From: Isoetes taiwanensis | Lineage: Eukaryota; Streptophyta; Lycopodiopsida; Isoetales; Isoetaceae | Assembly (NCBI GenBank): GCA_021234155.1 | Contig: JAJEKV010000071.1 | Coordinates: 3,286,483 to 3,350,482, forward strand | Length of the DNA stretch: 64,000 bases | Reading direction: 5' to 3' | In this document: positions 8,378 through 59,096 of the stretch, in pieces | How the letters are laid out: each line of letters opens with the position of its first letter | Numbering within the stretch: the stretch's first letter is position 1 | Made by a program: the position numbers and the translations under genes | Notes under the pieces: model-generated | What the model saw: only the letters and a program-made list of their open reading frames with translations | What the model was told of the DNA's origin: nothing | Databases searched by the model: none

Positions 8378-8381
8378 AAAT

Positions 8382-36546: not shown

Positions 36547-36571
36547 AAGTCGTATTTAATTAAAGTGGGAC
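36547..36571 (+). repeat. Outer transposon, left terminal inverted repeat
   Basis: 25 bp, itself containing the palindrome TTTAATTAAA. Followed by a subterminal GGGACTCATTCCATTCCCAC hairpin. Confidence 0.93.
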
Positions 36572-36779
36572 TCATTCCATTCCCACTTTTTTCCGGAACC
36601 CTGTTAATTTACACAAAAAGGAGCACCCCGACCCGAAAACTATCCTTAATTCGAATTTTTGAATAAAACTCTGCATTCAAGCTTTGCTGCAGTTTTCTCT
36701 GGTTAGCGAGTCGAGAACAAGAACAATGCAACTGAAACAAAGGAAATTCATTAAAGTTTGAAACCAAAGATCTAGTTGA

Positions 36780-37260
36780 AAAAGAATTTTTATTAATAAA
36801 TTGAACAGGTACAATGTATTTTACATCGGACGCAGAGACCATGGTGGTCTTCTTTGTCACTCTGATTACATCATCTTAGTAGGTGGTCCACCTTAGGGGA
36901 TTAACTAGCGGCTTCTTCTTCACGCCATTGTAAGCCTTGGGGCAACCCGAAGGGTGTGGAATGCCTCACGGGAGGTGCCTCTCGGAGCTCGGCCGACTGT
37001 CCACACCCGACTTCTCCACTCGCCTCCCGCAGACCTTCCATCGAATATGCTCCTTCCCCAACCTCCGGTGGATGTTATGCAATGCTTCAAGATGCTTTGA
37101 GCTTCCTCGGACTTTCTCTTTGTTCTTCGCCGTTTCTTTATCCCGGGGTGTAGCGAGCAACCTCTCAATTCCCGAAAGCAACCTTATCCCAAAGGCCGGG
37201 CAAGAGTGTAAGCGTGGCCGGGATCTGTGCTGAACCAGTATTTCTTCCGCCTTGAGCGGG
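36780..37260 (-). CDS. Unidentified minus-strand coding-like segment
   Basis: The frame ending at 36966 reads ATPRDKETAKNKEKVRG, SSKHLEALHNIHRRLGKE, and HLP before the stop. It is highly basic with no domain I recognise. It lies between the left terminus and the first outer palindromes, on the same strand as the FCP1-like and methylase-like genes. 37210-37330 repeats CGGGATCTGTGC and CGTGCTGAACC words, so this may instead be a repeat-derived frame. Confidence 0.25.
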
Positions 37261-37464
37261 ATCTGTGCCGCTGGAGCGGTCTCCTCGTGATGCCCGGCGG
37301 GATGCTGTGGCCGGTGTCGGATCGTGCTGAACCACGGAGCAAGGAGAGTATGATTAACAATTCACGGTGCCATTAGTCAAAAGCGAAGAAAAGAATGTTG
37401 AAATCAAATTACAATGGAGAACATTCATTCCATACAACCGCATCCAATGACGTGGGAAGTAGTG

Positions 37465-37675
37465 TCTTTCTCGACTCGCCCAGAAAAGGCCCATAAAAGT
37501 GAAAAGTACAACCCGGTGCCTTTCTGCGACTCGCGAGTCGAGAAAGGCCCAGGAAACGCAACGTAGAAGCATCATCATAATACATTGTGGCTGCATCCAG
37601 TCACACAATCAAACATACAAATGGTCTCATCAACAGGACAAGCATGCCTTTCTCGACTCGTGAGTCGAGAAAGGC
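37465..37675. repeat. Outer-element palindromes, left cluster
   Basis: Two full sites of the family TTTCTCGACTCGCGAGTCGAGAAA (37523-37549 and 37647-37672) and one half site (37468-37481). A further half site, GCGAGTCGAGAA, is at 36705-36716. They are on the outer-element side of the nested insertion. Confidence 0.85.
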
Positions 37676-37743
37676 ATCGAAAACTCAATATACAAGTATA
37701 TTCATTACAAAATGTTCAATACATTTCACGTTTGTTTACAATA

Positions 37744-37773
37744 AACAAGGTTTAAAATGAAACGCACTTATTT
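37744..37773 (+). repeat. Inner transposon, left terminal inverted repeat
   Basis: 30 bp; 29 of 30 positions pair with 46269-46298. It is followed by AAGAAGTGCGTTT, which can pair back on AAACGCACTT inside the repeat. Confidence 0.85.
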
Positions 37774-38228
37774 AAGAAGTGCGTTTGAAAGATTCCTTTA
37801 TAAAAATTGGAAACTTGAAAAAAATGGACAAAATAGGGAGCAAAATAGATTGTTCAGCAAATAGCATTCGAAATACCCCAAAAAAAGCAACATTTTTGAA
37901 GCCTTTTCATTTTTTAAGAAGGGCAAAAAAAAAAAAAGCTTGTTTTGAGGAGAAAGACATTACATTTAAGAACTCATTAAGTATTTGTTGTTGAAAATAG
38001 AAGGAAATATAGTTTTGTGTTTTTGCAAGCTTAATATAAGTACTAAGAAAATCAAACATAGAAAAGAGAAAGAGTCTGAAATCATGAATCAAAAAAAGAA
38101 TTGTTCTAATTAAGCATTGTTGAAGAGACAAAGTTTTCAAATTGAGAAATCTTCATCAAAATATATTAAAATTAAGTAACACATAGATTACAATGAAAGA
38201 TAGTTTAAAATCTGTCGCGTATATAAAT
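37774..38228. other. Left subterminal region of the inner element
   Basis: AT-rich with A-runs; no gene. One imperfect palindrome, GTATATAAATTTATACG, is at 38219-38235. Confidence 0.5.
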
Positions 38229-41200
38229 TTATACGGAGGTGGCTCTTCCCCACCACTCTCTCTCTCCCCTTAGGATCGGTCTCTTGCGGGTGATAATAGC
38301 GAGAGAGACCCCTTCGATTCCAATGGTACAGTGCAGTCGTTTCTCGCTCGGCACCACAGGGCTCGGATCGACGAACTCCACCTCCTCATTTCTTCTTCCC
38401 GTAAGTGGAGGTCGATTTACGTATATGTGCCTTTCATCGCCAAAGACCCATTTTTTTTTTCCCAATTCCTCGTTTTCATCGGGAAAGGATTCACAAGAGT
38501 TTATCCCGGTCCCGATGAAACTTATTTTGTCCGGTCTATGTCGACGGAGACAACATTGCGCCCGCTTAAGGGCGAAACCGGCTTCTTTGGGTGCCCGAGC
38601 CGGAAAATGCGCCTAAGATCCGGTCCCGTGGCGAAAAACCATCAGATCAAATTATTTATAAGTCGCCGTGGCTTCCGATAATGGGACACCACACGCCTTT
38701 GTCATTTGGGGTCTCTTAATTTTTGCAAAACCGCTTTTAACTGAAAACGCATTGCGTGGAGGAGTCTTTTCATTCTCGCGTATTAAAGTGAACCATGGTT
38801 TTTTTTGGCGTCTGCATTTGTAAAACCCTATGTGAAAGTGCTCAAACAACTTACTAAGCGCGGACCACCACCATGACCCTTAACGTTTGTTTTAAGCCCG
38901 CCAAACAAAGACAAACAATGAAATATTAGTAAAATAAAAACAAGGAAAATAAGTTAGCTCGAAGAGTGTGGCGGTATAAATTTATACGAGGGGTTGCCTT
39001 GCGGTATAAATTTATACCGGGGTTGCCTTTTATGGTATAAATTTATACCGGCGCAAGCAAGTATAAATTTATACGGATTATTGCCTTGCTATATAAATTT
39101 AAACCTTAGGGCGGTTGTGGTATAAATTTATACCGTGGAGTTACTAAAAAGAAAAGCGTTAAATGTTAAGCTTACCAAATGCGCCAAAGCCTAATTACGC
39201 ATACTCCCATAGGTTTAAGCACCGACATTGTTTGTAGGTCCTAATGGAAAATAATGACCCTCCGGTTAGCGGATAAGGTGACTTCCTTTAGGCCTTCCAA
39301 AAAGAGTGGACTTGCACGCGTGCGTGAAAGCCTCCTCGTCAAAAGCGGGCGCCCTTAATTTTGAAACCATAGGGAATATCCGCAATGCATAATGTGAAGT
39401 TCTCGCTTCTCCAAAAGTGTCCCCAACCTCGTGCAATCACCCCTCAACAACTCTGTACATGCAGTCCGACCAAACGTTGTAAATCTTTCATAAGAAGTGT
39501 CAAAGCCGCTAGTGGCGACCTCCTTTCCCCTGTTCGATTGCCTTAAGTCTCGCCTCTCTTCCTTGGCCCTCTGAACCCGGTTTAAAAATCCAGGAAGCCC
39601 CTTTTTCTTGTTCTCAAAGAATATTGTGAGAAAAAGGCACAAACACGTAACATATTTTTAGCAAAACTTACCCGACCACTAAAGTTAACAAATGCTCTCT
39701 AATAATACTATCGGTGGTACAACTTGGGTAGAGAAGCTTGCACTCCTCCCAAATCAAAGGTTTAGTTGCTTCATTAACTTCGGCCGGCGGTAACAATGTC
39801 TTTTCGATTTGCAAGAGAAACATGTTGTAAGACCGTAAAAATGTAGAAGAAAGACGGCATTGCAAATGTGGCTTACGCCTTAGCTTCCTTGGCCATTTAG
39901 GTGCCTAATGTAAATTCCTTTGGCCACGACTTTTTCCAAAAGGCTTAACAAAAATTTCTTTGCTTTTTAATCCCCAGAATCAAGTCCGGGTACAATGCTC
40001 ATATTTTTCTGTTTTAATTCTCCACCCTTTTTGGGTTTTTCTGCGGAGTCGGGCTTGCTCTTTAAGCTCACCATCTTCGAACATACAAAAAATTCTTTCT
40101 TGAAGATCCCACACCTGCAAATGGACAAACGCCATTAGTTTAGTGTTGCTTAGCGTAAGAGAATATGTTGCAGTCTACTTTCTAAACACGCATGGTGTGT
40201 AGTCACGGTATAAATTTATACCGTCCCTGGACACTTGTATACACGCTAAACACTACAAAACATAGAAAGAAGAGCAGCTTCTTACTTGACCATCTCTGAA
40301 TGCCAGCTGAAAGTAGTTATCGTATTGCTTTACTGCCATAATGGGCTTCTTATCATAGTCATAGCTGAGGCAGCACTCTGTCACGCAGGCTTCTCGAAGC
40401 TCCTGCAGCTTGTTCTTTTGCTTTTTAAAATCCTCTCCATACATTTGTTTAAATTCCACGTACTCACGGTGCATGAAACGGATCTTGTCTATTAAACTCA
40501 TTTTTAATCTGAAGTCATTGTCGAGATTATGACTCACGGCAATGACTTTTGCTTCTTCATCTGTTACACCAACGTATATATGTGCTTCTACGCTCTTCCA
40601 CACTTCGCTTCACGGCTTTCCTCTTTTGCTAGTTCTTTCCTTTGCCTTGTAACTATGTGTGCCTCCAAGAACGTAGTATGTGTAATCTTCAAGTCAGCCT
40701 TCTTGTAATCTTTTAGTTGGTTGCACTCGACTCGGCCCACCATAACAACTAGTGGCGACACATGGGCATGAGGATTTCTTCTCATTCTTTGTTTCAAGAT
40801 ATAGCCACATGTGCCGCATCTGACTTCCTGACTGTAGCACTCGACCCCATCTTCATTTTTAGGTGGCCTCTTAATGGTGCTCAATGTCAAAGAAATAGTT
40901 TGCTTTAGCGCTTTAGTGTCATTCACCCGCTTGAGAATAGCACTTGATTTATCCGCGTTTCACAACAATATCTCGCTCCGGGGAGCCTTCGAAGAGCTTC
41001 GTGACTCCTCTATAGTCAAACCCTTTGTGCCTCTAGATTTCTTTTTTGTAGGAGCCTGTGTATCTACTACGAGGGAATGCTTTCTACCCTTTCCCTTTGT
41101 TACCACTGGTTCCTCTTCCTCTTCTTCTTCTACTTCCTCGTCCTTCTCTTCAAACTCTTCGACAGGAGTCGGGTACCGTGAGACCTTTGACCAACTTTTG

Positions 41201-41786
41201 TTTCTTCAAGAAAGCACAACCGACATTAAAATGTCCACTATATCCCGTGAATGCGGGGTTAAGTTAGGAAGATGATCGGATAAATTTATAATGTAAAGAC
41301 ACTACACAATACTTACATGGCCACTCTTGTAATTGTCAGCCACGTACTCTTGCACATCTTTGGGTTTGCACATGCTTATTCGAAGCATTTTACTTTCAAG
41401 AACGTAAAAGACTTCCCCCTTGTCATGCATGCACTTCATTAAGATTTCATCATCGACCTCTGAAAGCAATAAGGGTTGATAATTTAAGCGGCAGGGTAAT
41501 AATCGTCACTCTTGTACTTGCCCTTCCCCGATTGATGACACAAGTAAAGGTATGCGCCTCGGGGTTTGCTCTCCCTTGCACCCCCGTGGACGCATTCACG
41601 CCCGGTCTTTCGGTTCAGATGTTCTGTGGCTCTATTGGTGCGACCTTTTGATGATCGGCCCTTGTTTACAAACTTGATCCCCGGGCTGGAAAAAGCGTAA
41701 AGAAGGCCATTTTTATGCAAGAAACAGTAACCTTTATCGACCTTTTGTACCATAAAACAAGTAAAAACAAAGGCGAAAAAGAGCAT
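38229..41786 (-). CDS. ParB/Srx-like and DNA-methylase-like protein, multi-exon (inner element)
   Basis: Coding-like blocks follow each other on the minus strand: 41786-41310 (VDKGYCFLHKNGLLYAF; EVDDEILMKCMHDKGEVFYV), 41280-40590 (acidic run, then RCGTCGYILKQ), 40603-40253, 40120-39900, 39865-39668, 39642-39355 and 38849-38229. The block at ~40700-40450 reads LEAHIVTRQRKELAKEE, then HIYVGVTDEEAKVIAVSHN and FRLKMSLIDKIRFMHREY. That is the order of a ParB/sulfiredoxin-like domain (G-x-HR-x-A-x-x-L, strand, (S/T)DEEA-x-x-(A/S)-x-x-(E/H)N, helix). The last block has RKPRRLINNLI and GRNVVSVDIDR, typical of the motif-I half of N6A/N4C DNA methylases. ELHIMHCGYSLW at ~39380 sits where a DPPY-type motif would be expected. 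Frameshifts are frequent, and splice sites were not all resolved. Palindromes lie in its introns and just upstream. Role inferred: sequence-specific DNA binding or modification. Confidence 0.5.
38966..39137. repeat. Inner-element palindromes, intronic cluster
   Basis: Six sites of GGTATAAATTTATACC or close variants at about 38969, 39003, 39035, 39061, 39089 and 39119, inside the minus-strand gene between its last two coding blocks. One more isolated perfect site is at 40207-40222. Confidence 0.9.
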
Positions 41787-41909
41787 AAAATCTACACTAA
41801 ATTATCACTTTTTTGTGTTATTTAAGCTTAAAACGCAAGAATATTACCGAAATTTTAAGGTTTTGCGACACTTCTTTAAGCACTAGACACCAAGATTCCA
41901 AAATGGTTA

Positions 41910-42360
41910 CTGATCGGTATAAATTTATACCGCCGAGCACGAAGCGGTATAAATTTATACCCAACCGTAACACGATTCCGGTGATAATTTATACCGGCAG
42001 GTGCTCGAAGGTATAAATTTATACCGCCCGCAACACGCAGTATAAATTTATACCGCTAGACCGAGCGGTATAAATTTATACCGATCGTGTTTCGAATCCA
42101 GATAAATTTATACCGCCGAGCACTCTGCGGTATAAATTTATACCGATCCAACTATATCCAGATAAATTTATACCGACTGTTCGAACGGTATAAATTTATA
42201 CCGCAGTGCTCGAAAGGTATAAATTTATACCGCCCAGAACACGCCGCAGATAAATTTATATCGATCGTTCTCGAATCCAGATAAATTTATACCGCCAGAA
42301 GCCAGCGTATAAATTTATACCGATCCAGAACTATATCGGGTATAAAGTTATACCGTAGTT
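41910..42360. repeat. Inner-element palindrome array, 15 sites at ~30-bp period
   Basis: Fifteen copies of a TATAAATTTATA core, mostly CGGTATAAATTTATACCG, are spaced 25-40 bp apart. Spacers come in recurring types (GCCGAGCAC..., GATCGT..TTCGAAT, GATCCA.ACTATATC, G..GTGCTCGAA), so the array has a higher-order repeat. Several sites read CCAGATAAATTTATACC where CCGGTATAAATTTATACC is expected. It lies immediately 5' of the minus-strand gene and upstream of the plus-strand gene, the natural place for a shared promoter or operator. Confidence 0.93.
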
Positions 42361-42599
42361 TACACTCTAGCAGATTAAAACAAAAGAGAAACTAGAACAA
42401 GACGGGTAGTAGACTTTACGCGGCCATGACAAGATAGACCCGCTGTGATAGACGCCCGCAGAGCAAATAAGGGGGTATATAAGCCGCGACCGCGGCGCCT
42501 TCGACTCAAAATGCTATTATATAGAAAATAGGGTGGCGGCGCCCTGGCTTTAAGTACCTCTGCTAAGTGCCGCTTCATATAGCCCATCTCCAGTTTTCA

Positions 42600-42770
42600 A
42601 TACAAGTGTCTGTGAGTTTTCGTATAAATTTATACCGCCTGTTTCTATGTTGTTTCTCCTCTCAGATAAATTTATACCATCTCAAAAGATAAATTTATAC
42701 TGGGCCTCGCGCCTTAAGTTTTTCTTCCTCAGATAAATTTATACGACTCTGTATAAATTTATACCGTATG
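42600..42770. repeat. Inner-element palindromes, cluster before the DUF7869-like gene
   Basis: Five TATAAATTTATA-core sites (about 42620, 42665, 42690, 42731 and 42748), sparser than the main array. They end just before the proline-rich start of the plus-strand gene. 42361-42600 between the clusters holds no recognised feature. Confidence 0.85.
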
Positions 42771-43129
42771 GCTCGAGAGAAAAGAACCCTGCTTCCAACT
42801 CCCCGCTCGCAGGCTTCCTCCTGCAATGGCTTTCACACCTCCTCAAATGAGACACCTGTGAAGTAGCCACCGAATATTCTACATCCCACATTCCAACACC
42901 CAGCTGCTTGAGTTTGCTCCAAAGAAGACCACCTCGCTTCCACCACCAGCGTTCAATTTACTCCACCACAACTGCCCCTCAACGCCGCCCGCCCCCACCA
43001 CGCGCGCTTTCACCCCGCTCAGGCTAGAGAGAGGTCGACTACCTCCTCCAATTCATTTTAGTACGCCGCCCATAGTCCACCGTAGGCTCCCTCCACGGAG
43101 GCAAATCACACCAACTCCATCCATTTCAA

Positions 43130-45890
43130 ATGGTACTACAACAAGTGGGAGCAACCATGACACGCAACTCCCCGTGTTCTCACGACATTTGGGGAGCTGG
43201 TCAACTACGCCACCAAACCTCGATTACTTTTTCCCCCCAGAGAGGGAAAGCACCTCCCCCGTGCCTTGCCCACATCAAACCTCTCTCAAAGATCTACAAG
43301 TACACCTCATGTTGATCTCTCGCACGAAGAAACACCTCATGTTGATGTCTCGGGACGAGGACCTACCAAAGCCACAAGACTCCATGTTCAATTCAAAGCC
43401 CCGCAAGTAAAAATCTTAAGCGTAACTTACACAAGACAAAGATGTACAACCAAGTAGAAGAAAGAAACTCATGGATCGAGGCTCACTTGGCAACACATAC
43501 AAAGCAATCGTTGTTCTCAACGTTGTTTGCTTAAGATTGGACTAAAGGAATTGAGGTTGCTTCGTGATAGTTACAGCTTCAATGACTCGCTAGACCAAAG
43601 GGGCTACTTAGCCTTCAATATTAGGCCGATGATGGTGAGAAGTTTACTTACACAGTGGTGGCCACAACCGCCTCAAAACGGCCTTCAAATTGATTCATGC
43701 TTTAGGCAGCAGACGACTTGACCGCCTGAAGAAAAGGCTTGACAAGAATCCAGGCATCAATGACTACTGCCATTCAGGAGGCATAACCAGAATTCATGCT
43801 CTTCAATGTGTTTCCTGGATGGAAGGTTTCTTTAAGGAGTCTTGTGAGAAACTCCCTAACAGCCCTATGTACCACTTGAGTGACAATTTCACGAAACAAG
43901 AAGTCTACGATAATTATAAGGAGATGTGTGTTGAGGCTGGAGAACGCTTTGTCTGCTACTCTTACTTTACTGTGCTCTGGAAAAAAGAGTTCTCTCGTGT
44001 GGCCATTCCTAGAAAGCATAGGATGTCTGTTTGTGCTACATGCTCAATTAAAAGCTCGGAGAGACAAAATGCAAGGACACTTCACACTAAAAGTAAGCTT
44101 CCAGGACGTGTTCTTGCCTAGTTCTACTTAAAAGTAGGTTCTTTCCTAAACATGTTTTCCTTTCAGATGCATTGAAGGAGAAACTGAACAAGCACAGAGA
44201 ACAACAATCTTTGGAAAGGAGAAAATTGACAAAACATAGGAAGAAAGCAATCGAACAACCACTCAACTACATATCGGTTGTTATTGATGGAATGGACCGG
44301 AAGAAGACCACCCTACCACATTTTGTCAATGTGCCTAAGGATGTTTGTTTGAAGATTTCATACATCCGCATGTTGTTGGTGCTATGGTATTTAATGGAAA
44401 ACTATCTTGCAAGGCATTTTTGAATTATCCAAACATTCATGCTGATCCAAATCTCACTATCACAATATTGAATAAGCTTCTTTCCAATCTAGAACATATA
44501 CCGGATTCAGATCTTGACTAGATAACACGACAAGGGAAAATAAGAATCGGCGTTGTTTGCTTATCATGCTTATGCTAGTAGAGAAACAAATCTTCAAGAA
44601 GGTGAAGATTGGTTTCCTCGCTTGTTGGTCATACACACGACCAAATTGATCGGATGTTCAAGAGGTTCTCTAAACGCCTTGCTCGAAAAAAGCTCTAAGC
44701 CCCGCCACCATGATTGAGGTCATCCAAGATTCCTACAATCCTCGCCCGCACATCGAAGTTATTGGAAGAAACTTATGATTTCAAGGAATGGATTTTTCAA
44801 GAGATCAACTAGGTCACCGTGGCTATTGAGCCCTTGAGAAACATTACATTCCAAAGATCAAATCAAAATTTCACTTGTAAATGGCAAGGCCATCTTACAA
44901 GGAAAGAAATATGCCACATCCTTGCGTAGCAGCCAGCCCAGTATTCAATTCATTCCATACATCCCCAATACTAGTTCCATGCTCTCTGCAGAAAGCAAAT
45001 GCCTCTAAAAAGCTTGAAAGAAATCACAAAGAGTAAAAAGGAGGGAAGAGCATTTGACTCAAATAAATCATTGGATTGTATTGAGACAAGTATTCAAATC
45101 CGCTCTAACCACTTTGGGGAGGCGGATGCTTTATGGTGGCCTCAATTTTTTCTCGGAACGTGACATGTTGCAAGCTTCATTACAAGGTCGAAGACCAGCT
45201 ACATTCAACCGCCATCTAGGCAAACCCTCCCCGTGCAAGTTGAGAATCAAGAGGAACATGCGTAGATATTGGCTAGCTCGGATGAAGATGACAGAGTCAT
45301 GTACACCGCCCTAGACGCACAAAGACAAACAAGTTGCTCGAGTATCCGGTTCGGGTCTCCGAGATTCGAAAGGAATGCTCATAGCTGTCCCACCGATAAT
45401 GATGAGTCCGGGAAGCCGCTCGCTAGCTAAAGTACTTGGAGGTAACAAGAGAGGATGGAATTCCCACTCAATTAAAAGTGCAATCGGATGAGAACGACCG
45501 CCAAATGCTTTCGATTGGGAGTTATACTTTGGAGATGGTAAAAAACAGAGTGGGAAAGAGAGCAAAGTCCAAAGCAAGTACTTTGCTGTCATAGATCTAT
45601 CCGAAGAAGGTTCTTGCATATGACTTTGTTCCGACCGCTAATAAGTTACGTATGGTCACTCAAACTTTAATAAGGTCGAGATGTGGATTAGACAAACAAG
45701 CCAAAAAGGTGGCCAAAAAGATGATGATGAAGACTCACTTGTAGACAAGTGAGGAAGAAGATCGCTCGAGTACATCCAAAGGTCGAGAGTGAAGCCGAGG
45801 ATGAAGGCTCGAGTGATCGTGGAATAAATGAGTCGAAGGATGAGATGCATCCTGATCTTGCTGCAAAATGTAAGTTTGTCCGATGACTCG
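43130..45890 (+). CDS. DUF7869-like candidate transposase (inner element), frame-disrupted
   Basis: A low-complexity Pro/Ser-rich N-terminal stretch (42780-43420) leads into LKELRLLRDSYSFND and YLAFNIRPM. From 43690 come RLDRLKKRLDKNPG, YSYFTVLWKKEFSRVAIP and SVCATCSIKS (CxxC), ending at an intron (GTAAGC 44095; TTTCAG 44165). After it come YISVVIDGMDRKKTTLPHF, HVVGAMVFNGKLSCKAF, NYPNIHADPNLTITILN, a DNTTRENKNRR block and VGHTHDQID across a frame break (about 44625), then an acidic tail to ~45890. I know this arrangement from proteins annotated DUF7869. The D...D...D spacing (VIDGMD, DNTTRENKN, HTHDQID) suggests an RNase-H-fold nuclease, hence a transposase. At least five frame changes are needed to read it through. 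I cannot tell mutation from sequence error. Confidence 0.6.
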
Positions 45891-46268
45891 AACATGTAAA
45901 GAACAGAAAGTGCAGGTGATGATTGTCTGTCAAAATATCCTATATTTTTGACAATTTTGTTCATAATTTTGTACAATTTTCACAACCTTGAATATATCAC
46001 TTCTTTGTCACTCTACTACCCTTGCTATTTTTTTTATTGCCCCTTTTTTGCTACACTTTATAAAAGTAACTATTTTTTGTTCTAGTTTAGGAGGATGAAA
46101 ATTGCTATTTAAAATTTTTGCACGAAAGTTATGTTCAATCAACCCCTCAAAAATGGTACCTAAATTACTTAAATTGTCACACCTGTCACAAAAAAATCTT
46201 AAAAATGGACTTTTTTAAGGGAATTTTAGGGAATCTTTCAAAGATTCCTTTTGAAGTGCGTTTCCAGC
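45891..46268. other. Right subterminal region of the inner element
   Basis: AT-rich, no gene. AAGATTCCTTTTGAAGTGCGTTT near the end (46240-46265, interrupted) is the inverted partner of AAGTGCGTTTGAAAGATTCC at the left end. Confidence 0.5.
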
Positions 46269-46298
46269 AAATAAGTGCGTTTCATTTTAAACTTTGTT
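46269..46298 (-). repeat. Inner transposon, right terminal inverted repeat
   Basis: Inverted partner of 37744-37773, followed by TSD AATA (46299-46302). Confidence 0.85.
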
Positions 46299-46333
46299 AA
46301 TATTCACACAATTTGACTATCTGAAAGCAGAGG

Positions 46334-47181
46334 TCACTCTTCTTGTTCACCAAAATATTTGTCGTCCATAGCTTTCATGGTCGCCTTGCTCTTTGGATCG
46401 GGTTCCGTGAGGCTCGGATAGTTCCTAATCACATCGGCGACAAGAATGGCAAAGAGGGATTCCGCCAAGACAGGACACAGTCCGAAGGACAACCACCTAT
46501 CCGTCTCATATTCTTCAGGTCGATATGGCTTAGCAATGATTGTATTTTGCGCGTTATGATAGCACTTGTAGGCGGAGTCGTCTATGATCAGCGTGTTGTG
46601 TTTGCCATAGTCCTGGAATTGCTCATAAACCCCGGCCGGCCTTTTTCACCATTATAGGCTTCCCCTTTGTAATGGCTTTGGATCGAGGTCCCACACATGC
46701 TCGAATTTTTTCGCTTCCCCAAACGAACTTGAACTTCAAAACTGAAATGCCGAGAACACCAAGAACATTGACAACATTTTTCTTTGCCATACAAGACTAT
46801 ATGCCCACTTCAATCCCCCGCTTCAATGCACCATTCAATAATTTCCTTAGCTCTAGGCCTCGGATACACTATTTTATGCTCCGCTCGGGTCGGATCCGAT
46901 CTGAGGTGTTAATCTCGGGGACGTCTTTATCGTGGTATACTTTGCCTAATACTCCATTGACGTCAAATATTACAAGCTTGGCGGGACCACCGGATCCCGC
47001 TTGGAGTTTGGCTCGACCATATTTCCCGGTTCATCGGGATCCAAATGCGATCATTATCTTTTCGGTCCTTTTCTCGGGCGTGAGCGGTGTCTTGCTCGAT
47101 TGTCTTTGTGGAGTGCACTCTCCTCCTCGCGACGTGAACCGCCGCGGTATCCAATGACAATGATCCGGAAGTCGTTGACAT
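46334..47181 (-). CDS. FCP1/NLI-interacting-factor-like HAD phosphatase (outer element)
   Basis: FCP1-type proteins are Mg-dependent HAD phosphatases that act on phospho-Ser/Thr, classically the RNA polymerase II tail. Minus-strand blocks: an N-terminal basic part from ATG 47181 (SLSLDTAAVHVARRRVHS), then from ~46985 AKLVIFDVNGVLGKVY (DxDxT/V-like nucleophile motif; the second Asp is Asn here), YPRPRAKEIIEWCIEAG and KKNVVNVLGVLG with KFKFVWGSEK. From 46612 comes GKHNTLIIDDSAYKCYHNAQ (motif III/IV, DD), then WLSFGLCPVLAESLFAI and DDKYFGEQEE ending at TGA 46336-46334. Two frame changes separate the blocks. Two outer palindromes (47222-47300) sit directly upstream. The Asn at the second Asp position could mean no catalysis and only binding. 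The nested element inserted about 35 bp past its stop. Confidence 0.72.
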
Positions 47182-47217
47182 GGAACTCCCCGAAATGATG
47201 ACATCCGCCGAAAGGAA

Positions 47218-47303
47218 CGAGTTTTCTCGACTCGCGAGTCGAGAATGAAAAGAAAAAGGTATTGAAAGGAACGAAGTTTTCTCGACTCGCGAGTCGAGAA
47301 ACA
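47218..47303. promoter_or_regulatory. Two perfect outer palindromes upstream of the FCP1-like gene
   Basis: TTTCTCGACTCGCGAGTCGAGAAA-type sites at 47222-47246 and 47277-47300, 54 bp apart. Each is preceded by GAACGA(A)GT. They lie between the start of the FCP1-like gene and the end of the methylase-like gene. They could be operators; this is inferred from position only. Confidence 0.6.
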
Positions 47304-47341
47304 CCGATAGAGCAAAAATAAATTCACCTCAATCTCGATTC

Positions 47342-50300
47342 TCAAGAATGTGTTCGGCAAAGATCCTTGTCTAAACCTTCGACAATCACGCCTCGTCGGC
47401 TTGGTCTCCCTCGTCCTCGCCGCCTTTTTTCGCTTCCATTTGTCTTCCTCCCCTTGAAATGCTCATGAAGCGCATCCGTGTATGACCGAATGGTTTCAAC
47501 CATGTCCTTATTTCCAACCACGGATATAGGTTTCATTCCAAACAAAGATAGCCCCCTCGAGAGAACAGGCCATTCATGTACCACTTTCGATACAATTTGA
47601 TCTTCCTCGACCGGGCTGGTTATGAAGTACTTGATAACTCTTGGCCGGATAGGAATTCTATGTATAGGACCTGCCGCACCATCTTTGCCGACCTTGTCCA
47701 TCGATGGAACATCCTCCATAAATCTGCCCCCCCCTTCCGGGTTCCATCCGCTCTTGAGAGATCATGAACCTGTCGAGATAATGATGCTCGCTAGACCACC
47801 ACTTATCCGTGTCTACAATACCGATCTTGAAATCAAAACCAAAACTATGTTGGCAAAGCTTGGTGCCTTCGGCAAGCCAAGTCTACACTCATGATCAAGT
47901 TCAGTATATGGAGTACATGATCTTGTTGGTGAAGTTAATATCACCGCCCATTGGGAGACAAAGAAGTTGTCCGATTGCCCGGCATGCAAAAGACAAGGAA
48001 ACTGAAAGTATCCAGGTCGGTCATGTCCAGACACGTCTTGTACCACTGCTCTATGTCAGCTTTGTCATAAAAAAGGGTGGGGTCTTCGATCATATTGATG
48101 ACAAATAGTGCCACTGGTCCAGGTGCCAGTTCCAGACCACCAAATCCCTTGTGTCCCAAAGTTACCGTAAAATGGGGAGCTATCGTCGGGCCTTAAATGG
48201 GACCACCCCTCAATCCAAGCTTCCTCTTCGAATTGCCATAGCACGTTCGGGAAAGGAAGGGTTTTGACGTTACCTTCAGCCGTGTTGATGTAGGGTTGAC
48301 ATAGACGATTCAATTCCTTCATGTCTTCCTCATCAAGGGCAGCCTTTTCCTTGTAAAAATCAAAGTCATGGTATTCATTAGATGCAACGTTGCAGAACTC
48401 CGTGATGCCTTCTTCTAACGCACGCTGTCGCTTTAGGACTGTGGCATAATCCTTTGCGTCCTGCATTTTAGAACTCCTAGTCTTCCTTAGCAGGATTGTT
48501 CCATCCAAGATTCTGCCTTGCAGGTCAAGCGTTTCTTTGTCCGTGAGGCCCTGTATCCTCTTCATGAACTGCTTGTCAAACAACTTGGGGTCCGGCCTGG
48601 ATGGAAATTCTCCATTGCTGTCCTTCAGCTTGCCTCTTGTCCATTGAGCCCATATCTCAGTCCATTTCTCCCGGGCCTACCGATTGCTAAGAATGAGGTC
48701 ATATTGGTCCGAGAGAGACTCCCCGCCTTTCCTTGGTGTTCTCTTCTTCTTCTCCTCTTCTTCCTCTCCCTCATCATCTTCCTCGTCCCTCCAGCCAGAA
48801 CATATCTCGCATAGTTTCTCAAAGGTCTTCCACTTATCCGGGGAGCCCCTGTTTCCTTTTTAGACCCGAGGACAACCCAATGCTTTCCACTGTTGCCTAG
48901 CGTGTATGATCTGGTCAGGATAAGGGCTGCATTCAGTCAATGCACCAATGTCAGAGCATGAAAGCATCTACAAAAACCTGCAATAAACAAGAATAGTAGC
49001 CTCGGTTTTCTCGACTCGAAGTCGAGAAAGTCCCTTGAACGCCTAATTTTCTTTTTACTTATTCGATTTTCTCGACTTCATGAAGTCGAGAAAGCTCGCA
49101 TCCTTTGATTTTTCACGTGTTACCGGCTTTCTCGCTTTCTCGACCGCGAAGTCGAGAAACCCCAAAGATAATCGGAAAATGTTAGATGGTAGCTTTCTCG
49201 ACTCAGCGAGTCGAGAAAGTCCCTTGAACGCCTAATTTTCTTTTTACTTATTCGGGTTTTCTCGACCGCGAAGTCGAGAAAGCTCTACATCCTTTGATTT
49301 TTCAGAAAGGTCGGCTTTTTCGACTCGCGAAGTCGAGAAACCCCAAAGATAATCGGAAAATGTTAGGATGGTGGGCTTTCGACTCATGAAGTCGAGAATG
49401 GAAAGATTCGAGAGAGTTATTTACCTTACGTAGCCGCACTCGCCGCTATTGTGTTCGCGCAGGCTAATACGCCGGCCAGTTCGGGTTCTTTGGCGTCTCC
49501 GTAAAAGAACTCTGCACTCTCGCTTGGCATATCTATCCTTGATCCTTTGCGGCACCTCCTTCTCCGCTCTGCAATACTTGCGCCGCCCTCATCAATGCTG
49601 GACCGCCTACAACCCGCAACCGACGTCTTTTCCCTTCGTGATCTTCCTCGGACTTCCAAATGAACAGCTCACCGGGCCGATCTGTTAAAAGGTATGACAT
49701 CCGCAGGCATTGATCTGCAGCAGGATGTCGCACCATCGTTTCGAATCTCCAAAGATGTGTGCCGGATTAAATTCCCCTGGGTTGAACAAGACGGCATCTC
49801 CCGTGCAAACCTTCAGTTGCCTAATGTCCGCCAGCGGCTTGTGTGATATTCCCAACGGATAATACCGAGCTAGACGCTCCATTTTCAGGCCCCTCTCTCG
49901 GAAATCCTGATCTGATCATCCGGATCCATTATTGGGGACTCGACCATATCTTCGCTCTCCTTCGTCATCCGATTCCTCCCGTGGTGGTGTCATCATCCCC
50001 ATCTTTGTTTTTGGTGGACTTTTTGTGTATGAACCACAACTTCATTCCCCAATCGAGAGTGTTGTAGAGTCTTCAAAGACAAGAGAAGTGAAGCTCCCCC
50101 GTATTGAATGTTTTTCCCCGACTCGAAATCTCCATACCAAGCTCCCCGGATGTTAGGGTTCCGCCTCCTTCATCCCTTCCGCATCCTTCCACCCAAGGTT
50201 CTCGACAATTTAAAGGCGCCGGCCTTTTTTCTGTGCCCTTAGCCTTGCTCATGGAAGAGTGAGAATAATTTGAAACTGCTAATTTTTGGTGTGATAGAAC

Positions 50301-50722
50301 TTACTCTTTCCGGGCCAAATGTAGTGTTAAATGCTTTGAATGGCGCGCGCTAGACGGAGAGCACAACACCGATTTTCTTGTACTTGTCTCCGGAGCTCTT
50401 CTTGTCCCTTTGGTGTAGAAACAGATCTTTCTCCTTCCCACTTGTCGATACGATACTCGACGCACCACCAAGAATCTGCTGTTGTTTTAAGAAGCTCGCC
50501 TCCAGTCCCTCGATGACGAAGAATGGAGTTCGCCGCTGATCACCGGTGAGTCCGGGTGAATGCCGCAAGAAGAAAGGATGGATCGGGCTTAAGGTATTCG
50601 ACAAAAGAAAACCTCGAGCTCACACGGGGTGTTTGTCTTCTTCTTCTTCTTCTTTGCCGCCGGTAGAAGCATCCCCTCGGCCCTCGCTTCTTGATCGGAG
50701 TCATGTCTCTATGCCCTCTCAT
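47342..50722 (-). CDS. DNA-methylase-like multi-exon protein (outer element)
   Basis: Blocks on the minus strand: 50722-50350 (a Lys-rich KKKKKK run, then FFVIEGLEASFLKQQQILGG), 49882-49426 (YPLGISHKPLADIRQLKV, AVLFNPGEFNPAHIFGDSKRW), 48822-48590 (acidic/basic run, then GEKWTEIWAQWTRGKL), 48583-48065 (GLTDKETLDLQGRILDGTIL; LPFPNVLWQFEEEAWIEGW), 48060-47810 (NMIEDPTLFYDKADIEQW, FSFLVFCMPG) and 47719-47342 (RVIKYFITSPVEEDQIV, LSRGLSLFGMKPISVVGNKD, basic RRRGRGRPSRRG tail). The order, a DPP-Y-like motif then a motif-I-like segment, fits the permuted beta class of N6A/N4C DNA methylases, but both motifs are degenerate, so this is tentative. It parallels the inner gene at 38229-41786. Frame changes are frequent; splice sites are unresolved. 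Confidence 0.4.
49004..49400. repeat. Outer palindromes in two ~185-bp tandem units
   Basis: Each unit (about 49004-49189 and 49190-49375) carries three palindromes separated by the same spacers: GTCCCTTGAACGCCTAATTT, then CATCCTTTGATTTTTCA, then CCCCAAAGATAATCGGAAAA. A seventh palindrome follows at 49377-49396. The array falls between two coding blocks of the minus-strand gene, probably an intron, as the inner cluster at 38966-39137 does. Confidence 0.9.
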
Positions 50723-50994
50723 CCTCTTCGACCCCTCTCAGAAATTAAGTCTCCTCCGCGCGTTGTGAGTTTTAGGACTGCATGTAAAAAAGATCGGGCG
50801 TGTTCTTTAATTTGAAGTTAAGGACATGCAATCATTTATGAAAAGAAGCGGGCTAAGGGTACAGCACGGTCGGCTTTAGCCCGCCCAAACACTATTTCGA
50901 AATTTAATCACATCAAGGGACTAAGTGAGCGGAGCGTAGTTTATCTTCCCTGCGGCATTGGGGACCTCGAGTTCGGAGGGGAGCATCGACTGTT

Positions 50995-51316
50995 AGCGAC
51001 TTCCGGAATGGCGCCGCGACGCGGTAAGCTGCTAACAGCGCCTTGCATATGTGTTTTTCCTGACCGCGCGTCCTATTGCAAGCAGTTGATTTGATCGATG
51101 AGCACGGAGCTAAGGTAGGAAGCGGAGAGGAGCTGCCAGACACGGGAACTCTACACTGCGGCGCCATGGAACGGGGATACGCGAGAATCGCAGTGATACA
51201 AGTATTAGATGCGAATACACTCTTGAAGAGACCGACAGAAGAAGCAAAGACTCTAGGTGAGGCTGCGGGATCCGTGATACAGTGGCCCAAGGAATTACTG
51301 CGTGAAGAGGTGAGTT
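50995..51316 (+). CDS. DUF8039-like plant transposon-associated domain, single exon piece
   Basis: The plus strand reads VDLIDEHGAKVGSGEELPD, TLHCGAMERGYARIAVIQVL, LLKRPTEEAKTLGEA and GSVIQWPKELLREE, ending at a GTGAGT donor (51310). I recognise this as the small domain found in many plant En/Spm-like and related transposon proteins (recalled as DUF8039: the pattern LxDExGxxVAxG ... P..TLGEA.GS.I.WP). The upstream part (TAPCICVFPDRASYCKQLI) and any downstream exon are not certain. It may be a captured fragment or part of an element gene. Confidence 0.45.
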
Positions 51317-51369
51317 TCAGAGATGCCTATGTTATTTCGCTTGTAGAACATGCCGTATGTGTTTAAATA

Positions 51370-53224
51370 ATGGAACTGCTGATAAGCTCGACGGATTCAT
51401 CGTTTCCTTGTCCAAACCATCATTCATTTATTTTGGGATTATGTCAATTCCAAAATCGCGCCAAATAAGCATTATTTTCAAGGCATCTAGTGTTTTTTAA
51501 CAATTTTTTTAGTTATACAAAACCCTAGTGTATGTTGCATTTTGAGTTATTTTTTTCAATTTACTTCAAATTAAGGTCCGGAAAGGACTTATTTATTTTA
51601 AATTACAACAAGGGATATATAGCATTATAACAAAAATATACATGAAATAGCAATTTTCCCATTAACATCAGTATGAAAATAATCGCTTCTTTTACATAAA
51701 TAAAGGAAATATTAGAAGGTGATCACCTTTCAAATATTAATTTTAAGCAACTAAAAGCTAGACTATCCACACAAAATAGTACAATATGTCGTCCAAAAAT
51801 GCTTTAAATGAACAATTATAGAAAATATAGCACACTTAAAATCGCGCTTGGCGCAATTTCCAAGCTAAATTTTCCAGCTATGGTAGTCCTAAAACACTAT
51901 TAGATATGTCTCTATAAAGAGAACTCTTAAAATTGGAGTAGACTTAAATCGCCCCAAGCGCGATTTTACAAGCTGCCATAGTTCAGGACAGTAACAGTAT
52001 TCCTCCAAGAAGTACAATTAAACCACGAATTCTTCTGCCATGGCCCTCACCATGCAGATGGGCACTACATTTTCCACCCGTATAGATGCAACAATGACAA
52101 TAGATTCTGCAAAAGAACAAATTCAAGTAAGCTGCATAGTGGAAGCTCTGTTTAAATATGCACTAGAGATGCAACAGCTAACTTCAAGTACCTTTCAAAA
52201 ACCATGACATCTGAATGAGTCCTTTGCAGAGAAGATTAACAAGGGGGCGATTAAGAAGAAATAGATGAAACTGGGCTAAATCGATCCATAGAGTACCTAC
52301 CAAGTCCCAAATCCTGCCCTGCACAATGCTGAAAGATGCCGCAAATTCGCCTTAATCTAAATAAATTTTAGTGAAGGAGAAGAATCGGAAGATAAGAACC
52401 AAACCTGGCCAGCTTGAACATTTGATGGTGGAAGAAGCAAGCAAAAGCGGCTGCAACGCATATGCTAGAAAATCCGACTGTAGTATCCAAAAAAATATTT
52501 GCATGAATCAGGCCAGAAACGGTCCACTAGAGTCTAAATAGAGCTGGATGCTCGCCTAGCCTCTGATAAAGCCAGAAACTCTGATAAACTCTGATAAACT
52601 CTGATAAAGCCCGAAACTCTGATAAAGCCAGAAACGCTCGCCTAACCTCTGATAAAGCCTCTGATAAGGCCGAAACTCGTGCAGAAGCTCTGAAGCGCTT
52701 GAAGAAGCAAACAGAGATGAAGCCGCTATGACAAGAGATGAGCTGCAAACAGAGATGAAGCGCTTGAAACGGCAAACAGAGATGAGCCGCTATGACAGAG
52801 ATATTGCAGCAGAGCAAAACGAAGAAAAGCAAAACGATTTTAGGGCAAGGGCAAAATGACGTCTTAGAAGAAAATAGAAATAAACGCAAAAGGCGGCATT
52901 AGAAGAAAAAACAAAATGCAAAATGGGAGGGAAAAAAATTGGGGGAAAGTTTTGTGAGAGCGGCGGGAGACGCGTTTTCCCTAAAAACGGAAACTTTTCT
53001 TGAAAACAGACGTACGCACAATAAATCTCTCTTATTCAAAAGTTCCAATAATTATGACATAATCTGAATTTAAATGAATGATGGTTTCCAGCATTTTTCA
53101 GCTTCGAGAGATGATTTACTCTCTGGGTTGAGAGATGCTCGGCAAGGAAACAATGGATCGGGAGTAAAGAACAGTTCCGTTTTAGGTGTGTTTTTTCATG
53201 GACTGTTTACTTGGAATGTTGTAC
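51370..53224. other. Non-genic part of the outer element with small repeats
   Basis: No gene. TAAAATCGCGCTTGG at ~51836-51850 is inverted at ~51952-51968, a 15-bp inverted repeat about 100 bp apart. AAATCGCGCC occurs again at 51454. Confidence 0.45.
52556..52810. repeat. Minisatellite-like arrays
   Basis: 52562-52660 is an array of CTCTGATAAA(GCC)AGAAA units. 52690-52800 has two ~60-bp units of GAAGCGCTTGAA..GCAAACAGAGATGA..GCCGCTATGACA. Confidence 0.8.
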
Positions 53225-54660
53225 ATAGATCAGGCTAGGACTAAGGCCCAGGAGATGCGGTTCAAATGCATCCTCTTGTAGTTAGTCGGAGGGGCCTCCA
53301 CCCTGTCCGAACCACTCCTCTTCGCAATATTCGAGGAAGATGGTTCGAAGGAGAGTGGCTCGCATGTGCTAGAGGCACTTGGGACTAAAAAAAGGAGAAT
53401 AGAAAGTGCAAGACTTGTAGAGAATGCAAGCCTTGGCTTCCTCCCCGTGGTTTCCCCGTGGTTAGTTGTAGAGGCCTCCACCCACCCCGAGCCCCTCCCT
53501 TCGCAATACCGAACTAAGATGGTTCAAGGAGAGTGACTCGACCGGCGCAGGCCACCGCTACCATACACGTGAGAATTGGTCGGGTTAAGGGATTCTCGAC
53601 TTCGAAGTCGAGAATGCGACGTTGGTCGCCGTTATTATTTTCACCGCAAGTCGAGAATGCCTTGGCCATCCGTAACTCCTGCTAGTACACACCGAGTGCC
53701 TCGCTGGTTAAGGCATTCCCCCACTCGGGCGAGGCGAAATGCGCATGCAAGAAGCTCTATGGTTTCCCGGTAGAGTTGGCTTTCAGAAGTATCTTCGACT
53801 GCAAGTCGAAATGCCTTTTAGCCATCGAAACTCCGGATGGTACACATGGAGTGCCTTAGTAAGGCATTCCCGACCGCGAGCCGAAATGCATACAAAGAAG
53901 CTCGTGGGTTTCCCCGCGGTTGTTAAGAGTTGGCCCAGACAAAAAAACAACTTCCCTTCGCAATGTCCGAGGAAGATAGAAGGAGAGTTGTTAAGACCGC
54001 CCGCAGCCAGCTCTAGAGTGTATCGCAGCCGCCGCTTTTCTCGACCACGAAGTCGAGAAAGCTGCCAGCACCTTCAGGTTAGTCGCCGAGGTCTCCACCC
54101 AATCAGAGCCCATCCCCTTCGCAATATTCGACTAAGATGGTTCAAGGAGACGGTCTTTGATTGGGTAGAGGCCACCGCACTACAATAATGTGAGAATTGT
54201 TGTTAAGAGTTGGCTCACAGACAAGAAAACCACTTCCCTTCGCAATGTCCGAGGAAGATAGAAGGAGAGTGGTTAAGATCTGCTCGCAGCCAGCTCTAGA
54301 GTGCACTAGAGTCTGCGCTTTCTCGACTCACGAAGTCGAGAAAGCGCCCAGCAACTGCGGGTTAGTCGCCGAGGCCTCCACCCGCCGGAGCCGCCCTCTT
54401 CGCAATATTCATGAGCATGGTTCAAGGAGAGTGGCTCGACCGGGTGGAGGCACCGCGATCGCACAAAGAGCCATTGGCGGTATCACATTCTCGACTCACG
54501 AGTCGAGAAGGCCGCAGCCAGGTTCTAAAGAATGTGAAGACATTGGGTAGTCAGGTAATCCCGAATCGCGAAGTCGAGAATCCCTCAACCGCCAACAGTC
54601 CAGTCCAAAGTACACTCCCTCTTCTCGCCTCGAAGTCGGAAGTTCTCGACTTCCTTGAAG
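53225..54660. repeat. ~240-290-bp repeats interleaved with outer palindromes
   Basis: The passage GTTAGTCG..GAGGCCTCCACCC, then CTTCGCAATATTCGA, then AAGATGGTTCAAGGAGAGTG recurs at about 53280, 53462, 54076 and 54360. A related passage, CTTCCCTTCGCAATGTCCGA, recurs at 53950 and 54230. Ten or so sites of the CTCGACTCGCGAGTCGAG family, from perfect (54036, 54322, 54488) to strongly eroded (53714, 53870), lie between them. Open frames here are repeat artefacts. Confidence 0.85.
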
Positions 54661-56299
54661 TCGGAAGAAGGCCCGCTCTTCCCCGGATCAAGCTGGCAAG
54701 CCGAAGTATTCCCAACTCGCCACTCCCTTCTCGCATGTCTCCCCGCAGTGGATTTGCTTGTGGAGTTAGAAATGGAGATTCTGTGAAGCAATTCCTATTC
54801 TTAGTTCTTGCCGGGAGAAAGACATTCCTAGTTATATTCTCATAATGCTCGCAATATCTTAGTTCCTAACACCAGTCTCGATGATTTCTATCTCTGTTGC
54901 TTGCTACTACTTAACCACTATTCTCACTTGTGCCAGCACAATGTATTCAATTCAACCACAAGCAAGAAAAAGATAACAAAAAACAGAAAACAATACAAAG
55001 GGAAAACAGATAATGAAGAGATTAGTGAGATCAATGAGAAAACAGAGAACAAAGGGAGAAGAGTACAGAGAACAAGGGAGAACAAAGACAGAAATGAGAT
55101 TAAAAAAGGGCATGATATTACAAAAACATACCCGAAGATTTGTCGGATGAGGAGGAGGCTTCCGAAGTTCGCCCATGTGGGTATAGTCGCTGGCAAAGCG
55201 TGAATAAGGATTTCTGGCCAGAAATTGTATCGCTGATCAATAAGAGCCTCTAACAAATGTAATATAAGTAAAATGCACTAAAGGACTTTACGTAAAACTA
55301 AAAAGCAAAGACTAAAAGGGCCTCACTTTCTTCTCAGTGCAGAACGCTCGAACAATGAATCTGCAGAGAACTTCTACCCGAAGCCCCCGATCCACGACAA
55401 GCCACCGGCCATAAGATGGCCTTGAATCGCCGGCTCGATCGATCACCGACGGGTAAAGCCCCTAAGGAAACAGGGGAGGATGAGTGATCGTGAGAAAACA
55501 GGGGGAGGAAGAATGGTCGGGGAGAGGAAGAGGGTGCAAGAATTCCGCACCCTCAACCCTCGTGAAAAGTGCAATAATAAAACCATTGTCACGCAGGGCC
55601 ATGCCCTCCATGACGGGGCGGTCTAAGGATTGTTGACATGGCCACGGTTTCAGCCTCCTCAAGAGGCGCCACGTGGACATGACAAGATATGAAAGGGTAG
55701 GTTATATGTTTATATATGTTATCTTATGTATTTAATAAGGTTTCAATGGTTGAATAGTTTCAATGGTTATATATGTTTACAATGTTTACATATGGTTTAG
55801 AATGAGTGTGGTTGTATGCTTTAATATGGTTATATGATTTTAGTTAATATGGTTGTATGATTTTAGTTAATATGGTTGTATGATATAATATGATTATATT
55901 TAATATGTTTGTATGGTTTTATATGGTTCATATGGTCATATTTGTGGTGTTTGGGGCTATATGGTTTTAATGTGAGCTTTTTCATTCGTGGGAACATGTG
56001 AGATGAGTAAAATGGAGCCGGGAAGTCCAAAGGAGGCCATTGCCCTAGGCTCCAATGGAGGAAGATGGGTTGCCTTTTGTTGCACCCTTGCAACTGCATC
56101 GGTTTTGCAGAGGGTATAATAACCTGCAGCTGATCCATTTGATAGTGTGAATGATGAGAGGTCGGGATGAACATCTTGGAGTTGGCATTGTGAAGCTTCT
56201 TATCGGGTTGATACAATCATGTCCTAGGGAAGCTCTAGTGATTGCATTGTGTGCTCAGGGTGCTTTGAGTCCCAAGCTCAGCTTGAGATGGCCAATTAG
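54661..56299. other. Non-genic part of the outer element
   Basis: 54960-55110 is purine-rich, low complexity. 55690-55950 is an AT-rich array of ATATGGTTGTATGATTTTAG-like words. No gene is recognised. One eroded palindrome pair is at 54630-54680. Confidence 0.5.
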
Positions 56300-58900: not shown

Positions 58901-59071
58901 TATTGAGAAGTTTGAAAACTATCTCAACTAGTGGTTTGTAAAATTTATGAGGAAAACAAGTAACCCAATTCTATGTGTGTCATGTGTAATTCTATTCAAG
59001 CAATCAATTCAGAAATTTCTTTTATGGTGTGTGAGTCCCATTTTCAGTCCGAGTCCCAAAATTCAAGATTT

Positions 59072-59096
59072 GTCCCACTTTAATTAAATACGACTT
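59072..59096 (-). repeat. Outer transposon, right terminal inverted repeat
   Basis: Perfect inverted partner of 36547-36571. Inside it, GAGTCCCA occurs twice (59031-59038 and 59051-59058), echoing the left subterminal GGGACTC. Confidence 0.93.

Follow-up and report, generated by a model that had tools for sequence, protein, structure and literature searches.

En/Spm (CACTA) transposons encode a poorly conserved second protein, TNPA, which binds many short family-specific repeats; their transposase is more conserved, and their gene-less copies are mobile if the cis sites are kept (excerpts of PMC2613891). Their ends are of the CACTA type and their target duplication is 3 bp long, as described for Tgmt* (excerpts of PMC2613891). 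In VANDAL transposons, related elements of one plant genome bear different short tandem motifs in non-coding DNA, and the motifs are matched to related, fast-evolving VANC proteins (excerpts of PMC5735166 and PMC10398659). Sola2 elements have AT-rich target duplications of 4 bp and short terminal inverted repeats (TIRs; excerpts of PMC3627910). Here, we analyzed a window of 64,000 nucleotides from Isoetes taiwanensis (contig JAJEKV010000071.1), in which two nested DNA transposons carry different palindromes (Table 1). Judging from the sequence, the palindrome arrays are probably sets of predicted sites at which a dimeric DNA-binding protein of the transposon family itself would dock, most likely the accessory protein, whose gene is divergent from that of the transposase.

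The outer element has perfect 25-bp TIRs (AAGTCGTATTTAATTAAAGTGGGAC) and a target duplication (TSD) of 4 bp, AAAT, at 36543-36546 and 59097-59100. The first-pass annotation had placed the inner borders exactly, but its outer interval (37465-54680) was too narrow; we set the outer borders at 36547 and 59096 because an empty site is present in the duplicated locus. The inner element ends in AACAA[G/A]GTTTAAAATGAAACGCACTTATTT, with 29 of 30 bases matching between the two ends, and is flanked by the 4-bp TSD AATA. Ends of the inner type with 4-bp duplications were also found in L005, L011, L015, and L017. Altogether, a 4-bp TSD was seen in six of the seven elements of which both ends were read, namely the inner (AATA) and outer (AAAT) elements of the window, L005 (AAAT), L015 (ATAG), L011 (TTGA), and L017 (ACCC), the seventh being L019 with no matching duplication (CCCG/CAGG). 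Exact copies of the outer TIR number 1,102 in forward and 1,115 in reverse orientation across the genome, and those of a 24-mer of the inner TIR number 679 in each; the controls gave 0 in both cases.

Table 1. Features of the nested elements in the 64-kb window.
Feature	Position	Strand	Remarks
Empty target site for outer element	8378..8381	.	AAAT once; other copy of duplicated PPR-gene locus
Outer DNA transposon	36547..59096	.	22,550 bp; TIR, TSD, empty site
Outer-type half-site (36709) and sites (37468-37670)	36703..37670	.	Left part of outer element
Inner DNA transposon	37744..46298	.	8,555 bp; nested in outer element; TIR, TSD
Second inner palindrome cluster	38971..39134	.	
Lone perfect inner palindrome, 20 bp	40205..40224	.	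Adjoins ParB-like exon
Broken accessory gene, inner	40253..41262	-	tblastn with intact L023 relative; acidic and basic stretch, then ParB-like (GGTHSYKA ... DEEAKVIAVSHNL)
Probable upstream exon of inner accessory gene (N-terminal domain)	41484..41786	-	ORF; by eye from homologous L017 exon
Main inner palindrome array (GGTATAAATTTATACC)	41915..42355	.	Spacing of ~28-32 bp; between two divergent gene regions
Inner palindromes	42621..42765	.	Upstream of inner DUF7869 gene
Broken DUF7869 (PF25273) transposase-like gene, inner	43233..45421	+	Pfam E 6.8e-16 and 2.2e-8 (two frames); tblastn with third-family protein
Two perfect outer palindromes, 22 and 24 bp	47224..47301	.	
Accessory ORF, outer element	48065..48583	-	Repeated family; 2,530 genome candidates, 150 scored
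Outer palindrome array	49008..49398	.	Half-sites 3-6 bp apart
Outer palindromes	53593..54657	.	Upstream of outer DUF7869 gene
Broken DUF7869 gene, outer	57034..57949	+	Pfam, two frames; blastp pieces

Each of the nested elements was found to have a palindrome of its own, and both the window counts and the genome-wide counts confirm this proposal of the first-pass annotation. With up to four mismatches, the inner motif GGTATAAATTTATACC has 31 sites in the window (11 exact), of which 29 are within 37744-46298 and two, with four mismatches each, lie outside (6880 and 34968). With up to three mismatches, 25 sites were counted in the inner element and none in the outer element or elsewhere, against an average of 0.05 in 20 dinucleotide shuffles. 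The outer motif CTCGACTNNNNAGTCGAG occurs as two exact 18-mers in the window, and its matches with up to four mismatches over the whole 18-mer are all in the outer element (outer 6, inner 0, elsewhere 0). So are its paired 7-base half-sites (up to one mismatch each, gap of 0-8), with 15 sites in the outer element and none in the inner element or elsewhere. Of the 9-base half-sites with up to one mismatch, the outer element accounts for 18 of the 22 left ones and 18 of the 23 right ones, and "over 20" outer sites, as had been claimed, holds if unpaired half-sites are counted but not for the 15 paired ones. Perfect palindromes of at least 14 numbered 17 in the inner element (30 shuffles: mean 0.7, maximum 3), 7 in the outer element (mean 0.7, maximum 2), and 5 in the rest of the window (mean 3.0, maximum 7). 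Gaps in the inner arrays concentrate at 28-32 bp (38 sequences); helical phasing was considered and rejected, as gaps over 45 bp have no 10.5-bp period. The outer half-sites are separated by 3-6 bp, which is odd for one rigid dimer and counts against binding of the arrays by the accessory protein.

The genome-wide count, with reversed motifs as controls, gave 7,218 sites for GGTATAAATTTATACC (control 0) and 6,899 for CTCGACTNNNNAGTCGAG (control 1). Related elements with new palindromes, another point raised by the first-pass annotation, were found as well: a third, related family has its own palindrome, GTGTATTCCGGAATACAC, with 2,585 sites across the genome (control 0), and two copies (L051 and L007+L008) have the array flanked by divergent genes. 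Site numbers in the thousands, where the controls give 0-1, argue for arrays bound by the accessory protein. Separately, a possible fourth palindrome, AAGGAATATTCCTT, was seen with six exact sites in L019+L020.

We examined the partition among families with clusters built, for each palindrome type, from the 50 sites listed first, looking for an exact inner TIR within 6 kb and an exact, facing outer TIR within 13 kb. Among the matches listed, 7 of 10 inner clusters were near an inner TIR and none near an outer TIR, and 13 of 24 outer clusters were near an outer TIR (8 of the 24 enclosed by a facing pair) and none near an inner TIR. Of the 22 third-type clusters listed, none was near an inner TIR and one was near an outer TIR, outside the TIR pair. 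Among the matches listed, the sites thus go with the TIRs of their family, as would be expected if palindromes are confined to their families. Furthermore, among the listed matches to the inner accessory gene (best 30 of 150, with L026 being the window itself), the surrounding loci had inner palindromes in 30/30, outer ones in 0/30, and third-type ones in 0/30. On the other side stand a third-type site found 514 bp from outer sites on contig C18 and, among the matches listed, the clusters with no exact TIR of their own (11 of 24 outer, facing within 13 kb; 3 of 10 inner, within 6 kb).

DUF7869, named so far only as a domain of unknown function, marks the one gene recognized in all three families. 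For the outer gene, one frame passed the cut-off of 26 bits (E 6.1e-10, 39.4 bits) and the other, at E 2.1e-5 and 24.7 bits, did not. In the Pfam scan of six frames of 36400-59100, where the genes are broken and stops were read as X, only DUF7869 appeared at E up to 0.01-0.05, and at E up to 5 there was a single NAPRTase match (E 0.13). A single search of viral contigs using six peptide patterns detected no DUF7869 relative, nor did PDB contain one by sequence at E up to 5, and the literature searched does not mention the domain. Since a transposase must recognize its own element, the DUF7869 protein itself might bind the palindromes and the accessory protein might have another role, which we consider unlikely. 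Between the inner and third families, identity is 63% in the transposase core (250 aa) despite the different palindromes, versus 21.6% in the accessory N-domain (97 aa); the second protein diverges far more than the transposase core, as the proposed co-variation of palindrome and protein anticipated. The other transposase pieces are 36-54% identical, so that a change of specificity could reside outside the core, and this divergence likewise weighs against assigning the palindromes to the accessory protein.

For the inner accessory gene, the genome has 2,256 candidate relatives, of which 150 were scored, and the homologous L017 exon matches the second protein of the third family. Searches by tblastn in phages gave weak matches only (E 0.2-9) in 16 records, comprising 8 Mycobacterium phages, 6 Gordonia phages, and 2 Sulfolobus viruses; a plasmid search gave four weak Spiroplasma matches. 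Because the weak phage matches were mostly annotated as ParB-like (12 of the 13 Mycobacterium/Gordonia rows among the matches listed, the other being hypothetical), we compared a profile of 11 intact inner accessory relatives with phage ParB-like proteins. This hhalign comparison detected a ParB-like stretch of 51 columns (probability 81, score 44.6), a score reached by none of 100 column shuffles. No ParB match for the inner accessory protein was found in Pfam, NCBIfam, PDB by sequence, or a large protein set. The predicted fold of a broken piece from the window has a pLDDT of 53 and is uninformative. A candidate stretch noticed by eye in the outer accessory gene (two frames, 49430-49700) was rejected at an hhalign probability of at most 1.5. 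The "ParB/methylase-like protein" of the first-pass annotation finds some support for its ParB part, in the inner family only; a methylase-like protein was not seen above threshold when six frames of 36400-59100 were scanned with Pfam, a negative weakened by the broken genes. The ParB-like exon was searched for in the outer and third families and not found, which is a point against the preferred reading as well. That ParB-like clamp proteins load at family-private, parS-like palindromes, spread over the element, and mark it as self for transposition or escape from silencing, with protein and palindrome recoded together at each family split, seems to us distinctly unlikely.

Gene-less inner-type elements of 2.2 kb retain both the ends and the array. 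Three of them have the ends, the right subterminal sequence, and the array in common with autonomous copies, and over 1 kb of their left interior is not shared with the latter. Identity among the three is 93.1% in palindrome columns and 88.0% in array spacers (Fisher p 0.003, computed on non-independent pairwise counts). The rest of the elements outside the array is also 93.1% identical, and palindrome columns being no better conserved than this counts against the binding of arrays. If the palindromes were hairpins, cruciforms, or neutrally carried tandem repeats, no binding protein would be required; the arrays do resemble tandem repeats and the outer half-site spacing varies, but identical words of 14-18 bases are found thousands of times with more variable array spacers, single sites are scattered (40205), and sites persist in elements that have no left interior sequence in common with the autonomous copies compared. 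We regard this account as highly improbable.

A VANC-like main function, in which an element protein on the arrays frees its own family from silent chromatin and the arrays are dispensable for transposition, is possible but rather unlikely. The arrays are in non-coding parts, the inner repeats are in tandem at ~28-32 bp, and related families differ, as for VANC targets (excerpts of PMC5735166). The outer sites seem to have been methylated once, because 26 of 50 sites among the matches listed have a CGCG centre and 13 others differ from it by CpG-type transitions only (by eye). Against this, neither a VANC-named domain or protein nor a Mutator-type transposase was found by Pfam scans, for which the window genes are broken. 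Gene-less copies hold arrays with no known gene to derepress, although anti-silencing can explain that too.

We favor family-made accessory proteins as the binders, given the partition in the places examined, the three palindromes, the divergent layout, the retention of arrays, and the unequal divergence of the proteins. Each family would make a dimeric DNA-binding protein that recognizes its own arrays, most likely the accessory protein, whose gene is divergent from that of the DUF7869 transposase. Once bound, the arrays may tag the element as "own", may aid the assembly of its ends for transposition, and may control the two-way promoter or hold it open. When a family splits, the accessory protein and the palindrome would change jointly and the transposase core would stay similar. 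Speaking against this scheme, the arrays are largely mid-element and close to genes and, in contrast to En/Spm, are not restricted to the ends. A single genome offers three palindrome sets, each with thousands of near-identical sites and each linked to one transposon family, and a second protein diverging fast between two families, which makes the co-change of a DNA-binding protein and its site open to study.

The parS sites of bacteria and phages have a 16-bp palindromic form. The elements described here may resemble ParB-parS in the 51-column ParB-like stretch of the inner second protein and in 16-bp palindromic sites; unlike ParB-parS, they are eukaryotic transposons in which just a part of the ParB domain can be recognized and which have thousands of sites, and the six-frame Pfam scan of 36400-59100 gave no ParA-like match. 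The excerpts among the literature matches listed hold nothing on Isoetes DNA transposons with palindromes or on ParB in eukaryotic transposons, into which our reading may bring a ParB-like protein. The likeness to Sola2 consists of 4-bp duplications and short TIRs; some duplications are AT-rich like those of Sola2 but ACCC is not, and palindromic arrays go unmentioned in the excerpts of PMC3627910. Family-specific short motifs in non-coding tandem arrays appear to be shared with VANDAL, but the VANC21 motif is the 9-base YAGTATTAY in one orientation (excerpts of PMC5735166), not a palindrome. To En/Spm, the likeness in sequence pattern would lie in short repeats that differ among families, a diverged second protein, and gene-less copies with sites. 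Unlike in En/Spm, the transposase is of the DUF7869 type, with no CACTA transposase matched in the six-frame Pfam scan of 36400-59100; the ends (AACAARGTTTAAAATG and AAGTCGTATTTAATT) are not CACTA ends and the TSD is 4 bp, the short near-perfect palindromes are found both centrally and closer to the ends, and a ParB-like stretch is present in the inner second protein. By analogy, the idea has precedents in TNPA/CACTA and VANC/VANDAL, and, if true, would carry their principle over to palindromes and to a further lineage of transposases.

The two nested DNA transposons in the window belong to related DUF7869-bearing families, and each was found to hold its own type of palindrome, as the first-pass annotation had proposed. 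Inner palindromes (GGTATAAATTTATACC, up to 4 mismatches) occurred 31 times in the window, 11 of them exact, and 29 of the 31 lay within the inner element. All 15 outer-type sites (CTCGACT and AGTCGAG, each with at most 1 mismatch, separated by 0-8 bases) lay in the outer element, and shuffled sequence yielded almost no sites of either type. Across 1,658,258,908 bases in 1,110 contigs, GGTATAAATTTATACC was counted at 7,218 sites versus 0 for its reversed control, and the outer palindrome CTCGACTNNNNAGTCGAG at 6,899 sites versus 1. The borders first assigned to the inner element were exact, but those of the outer element were too narrow: the window carries two copies of a PPR-gene locus, one with the insertion and the other with an empty site in which AAAT is present once, and the outer element was delimited from the latter (see the table). 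An E motif was found in one of the PPR genes. The DUF7869 gene is broken in both elements; genome-wide, this domain gave 9,903 first-look candidates, and all 150 that were scored exceeded the cut-off.

Coordinates of the elements and neighboring features (TIR, terminal inverted repeat)
Locus	Position	Feature
Window	2092-13344	PPR-gene locus, first copy (PPR gene split over two frames, 4739-5590 and 5887-6456)
Window	30198-64000	PPR-gene locus, second copy, 96-99.8% identical to the first (PPR gene a single open frame, 32787-34544)
Window	26178-27386	402-aa open frame matching TrkH cation transporters (E 4.5e-28)
Window	36547-59096	Outer element; perfect 25-bp TIRs
Window	37744-46298	Inner element; AATA on both flanks
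L005		Gene-less element with inner-type ends, 2,203 bp
L015		Gene-less element with inner-type ends, 2,168 bp
L019		Gene-less element with inner-type ends, 2,200 bp
L019+L020	3227-11128	Outer-DUF7869-like pieces, apparently with a gene-less inner-family insertion of 2.2 kb between them (8388-10587)
L019+L020	12814-13094	Candidate fourth palindrome, AAGGAATATTCCTT, in 6 exact copies; distantly DUF7869-like pieces nearby
L007	4790-5000	CACCACATGTGGTG, 3 exact and 1 shorter, spaced 45-116 bp
L017+L018	18674-19801	Outer-family copy end with exact outer TIR, not far from an inner-family element

A third family was recognized at L051, whose open frame of 987 aa is the longest of the 150 scored DUF7869 matches; there, an array of AGTGTATTCCGGAATACACT separates the DUF7869 gene from a divergent one. 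Genome-wide, the core word of AGTGTATTCCGGAATACACT was counted at 2,585 sites versus 0 for the control. A second copy of this family (L007+L008) adjoins an inner-family piece, and the third and inner palindromes part at the junction. Contig C46 has a third-type cluster ~2.1 kb upstream of a DUF7869 match. Visual comparison of the inner with the third palindrome shows a common GTAT at -7 to -4 from the center and differences at other positions.

The first 50 listed sites per type fell into 10 clusters for the inner type, 24 for the outer, and 22 for the third. Within these, an exact inner TIR was found within 6 kb of 7/10 inner, 0/24 outer, and 0/22 third-type clusters, while exact outer TIRs facing inwards within 13 kb accompanied 0/10, 13/24, and 1/22, respectively; the sole third-type cluster lies outside the facing pair. 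The three inner clusters devoid of an exact TIR were that of L017 (TIR with mismatch), that on contig C4 (inner coding sequence), and that on C14. On contig C18, a third-type site is 514 bp away from outer sites. Altogether, the palindromes go with the family among the first 50 listed sites per type, with the C18 site as an apparent exception.

Of the 23 facing pairs of exact inner TIRs in the listed places, 4 spanned ~2.2 kb and 13 spanned 8.3-9.4 kb, with 5 intermediate in length and 1 of 16 kb. Of the 18 outer pairs (listed places up to contig C63), 7 spanned 3.5-4.6 kb and 8 spanned 11-14.6 kb, the remaining 3 being longer. Against four autonomous copies or parts of copies (E 1e-3), the three gene-less elements showed matches in their ends, right subterminal part, and array, and 7-10 near-perfect sites were kept; a stretch of >1 kb in the left interior found no match in those copies. 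Since gene-less copies keep the arrays, we regard their retention as arguing for a cis role beyond expression of the element's own genes. Alternatively, the gene-less copies may descend from an autonomous subfamily absent from the copies seen here.

The product of the divergent gene, the second protein, was examined in the inner family (2,256 first-look genome candidates, 150 scored). Inner palindromes were present in 30/30 and outer palindromes in 0/30 of the loci of its gene (the best 30 of the 150 scored, one being the window). The protein bears one acidic and one basic stretch, along with a ParB-like region (GGTHSYKA ... DEEAKVIAVSHNL). In hhalign, an alignment of 11 intact relatives matched one built from relatives of a ParB-like phage protein (the 120 listed out of 1,573) with a probability of 81 and a score of 44.6 (51 columns, 35% identity), versus a maximum of 25.7 in 100 column shuffles. 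The reference set largely reflects annotators' names, because a precomputed PF02195 label was found in only 1/120 and the two phage proteins scanned against Pfam gave no match. No such region was found in outer or third elements with the inner-family profile. Between the inner (L017) and third (L051) families, the DUF7869 core is 63% identical across 250 aa and pieces outside the core are 36-54% identical, versus 21.6% across 97 aa (E 1.2e-8) for the second protein's N-terminal domain. This unequal divergence of core and N-terminal domain fits the second protein as the putative determinant of palindrome specificity. The outer DUF7869, broken and more distant, reaches ~40% identity in the best pieces.

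Most likely, a dimer of each family's second protein would bind the palindromes of its own family, whose array would serve both transposition and promoter control, limited to that family. Each use has a precedent elsewhere: TNPA acts on the subterminal repeats of En/Spm, of which gene-less copies are mobile if cis sites are kept (PMC2613891), and VANC acts on VANDAL motifs that differ among related families (PMC5735166, PMC10398659). The elements described here differ from both in the type of transposase, the length of the target duplication (4 bp), the palindromic nature of the sites, and the ParB-like stretch.
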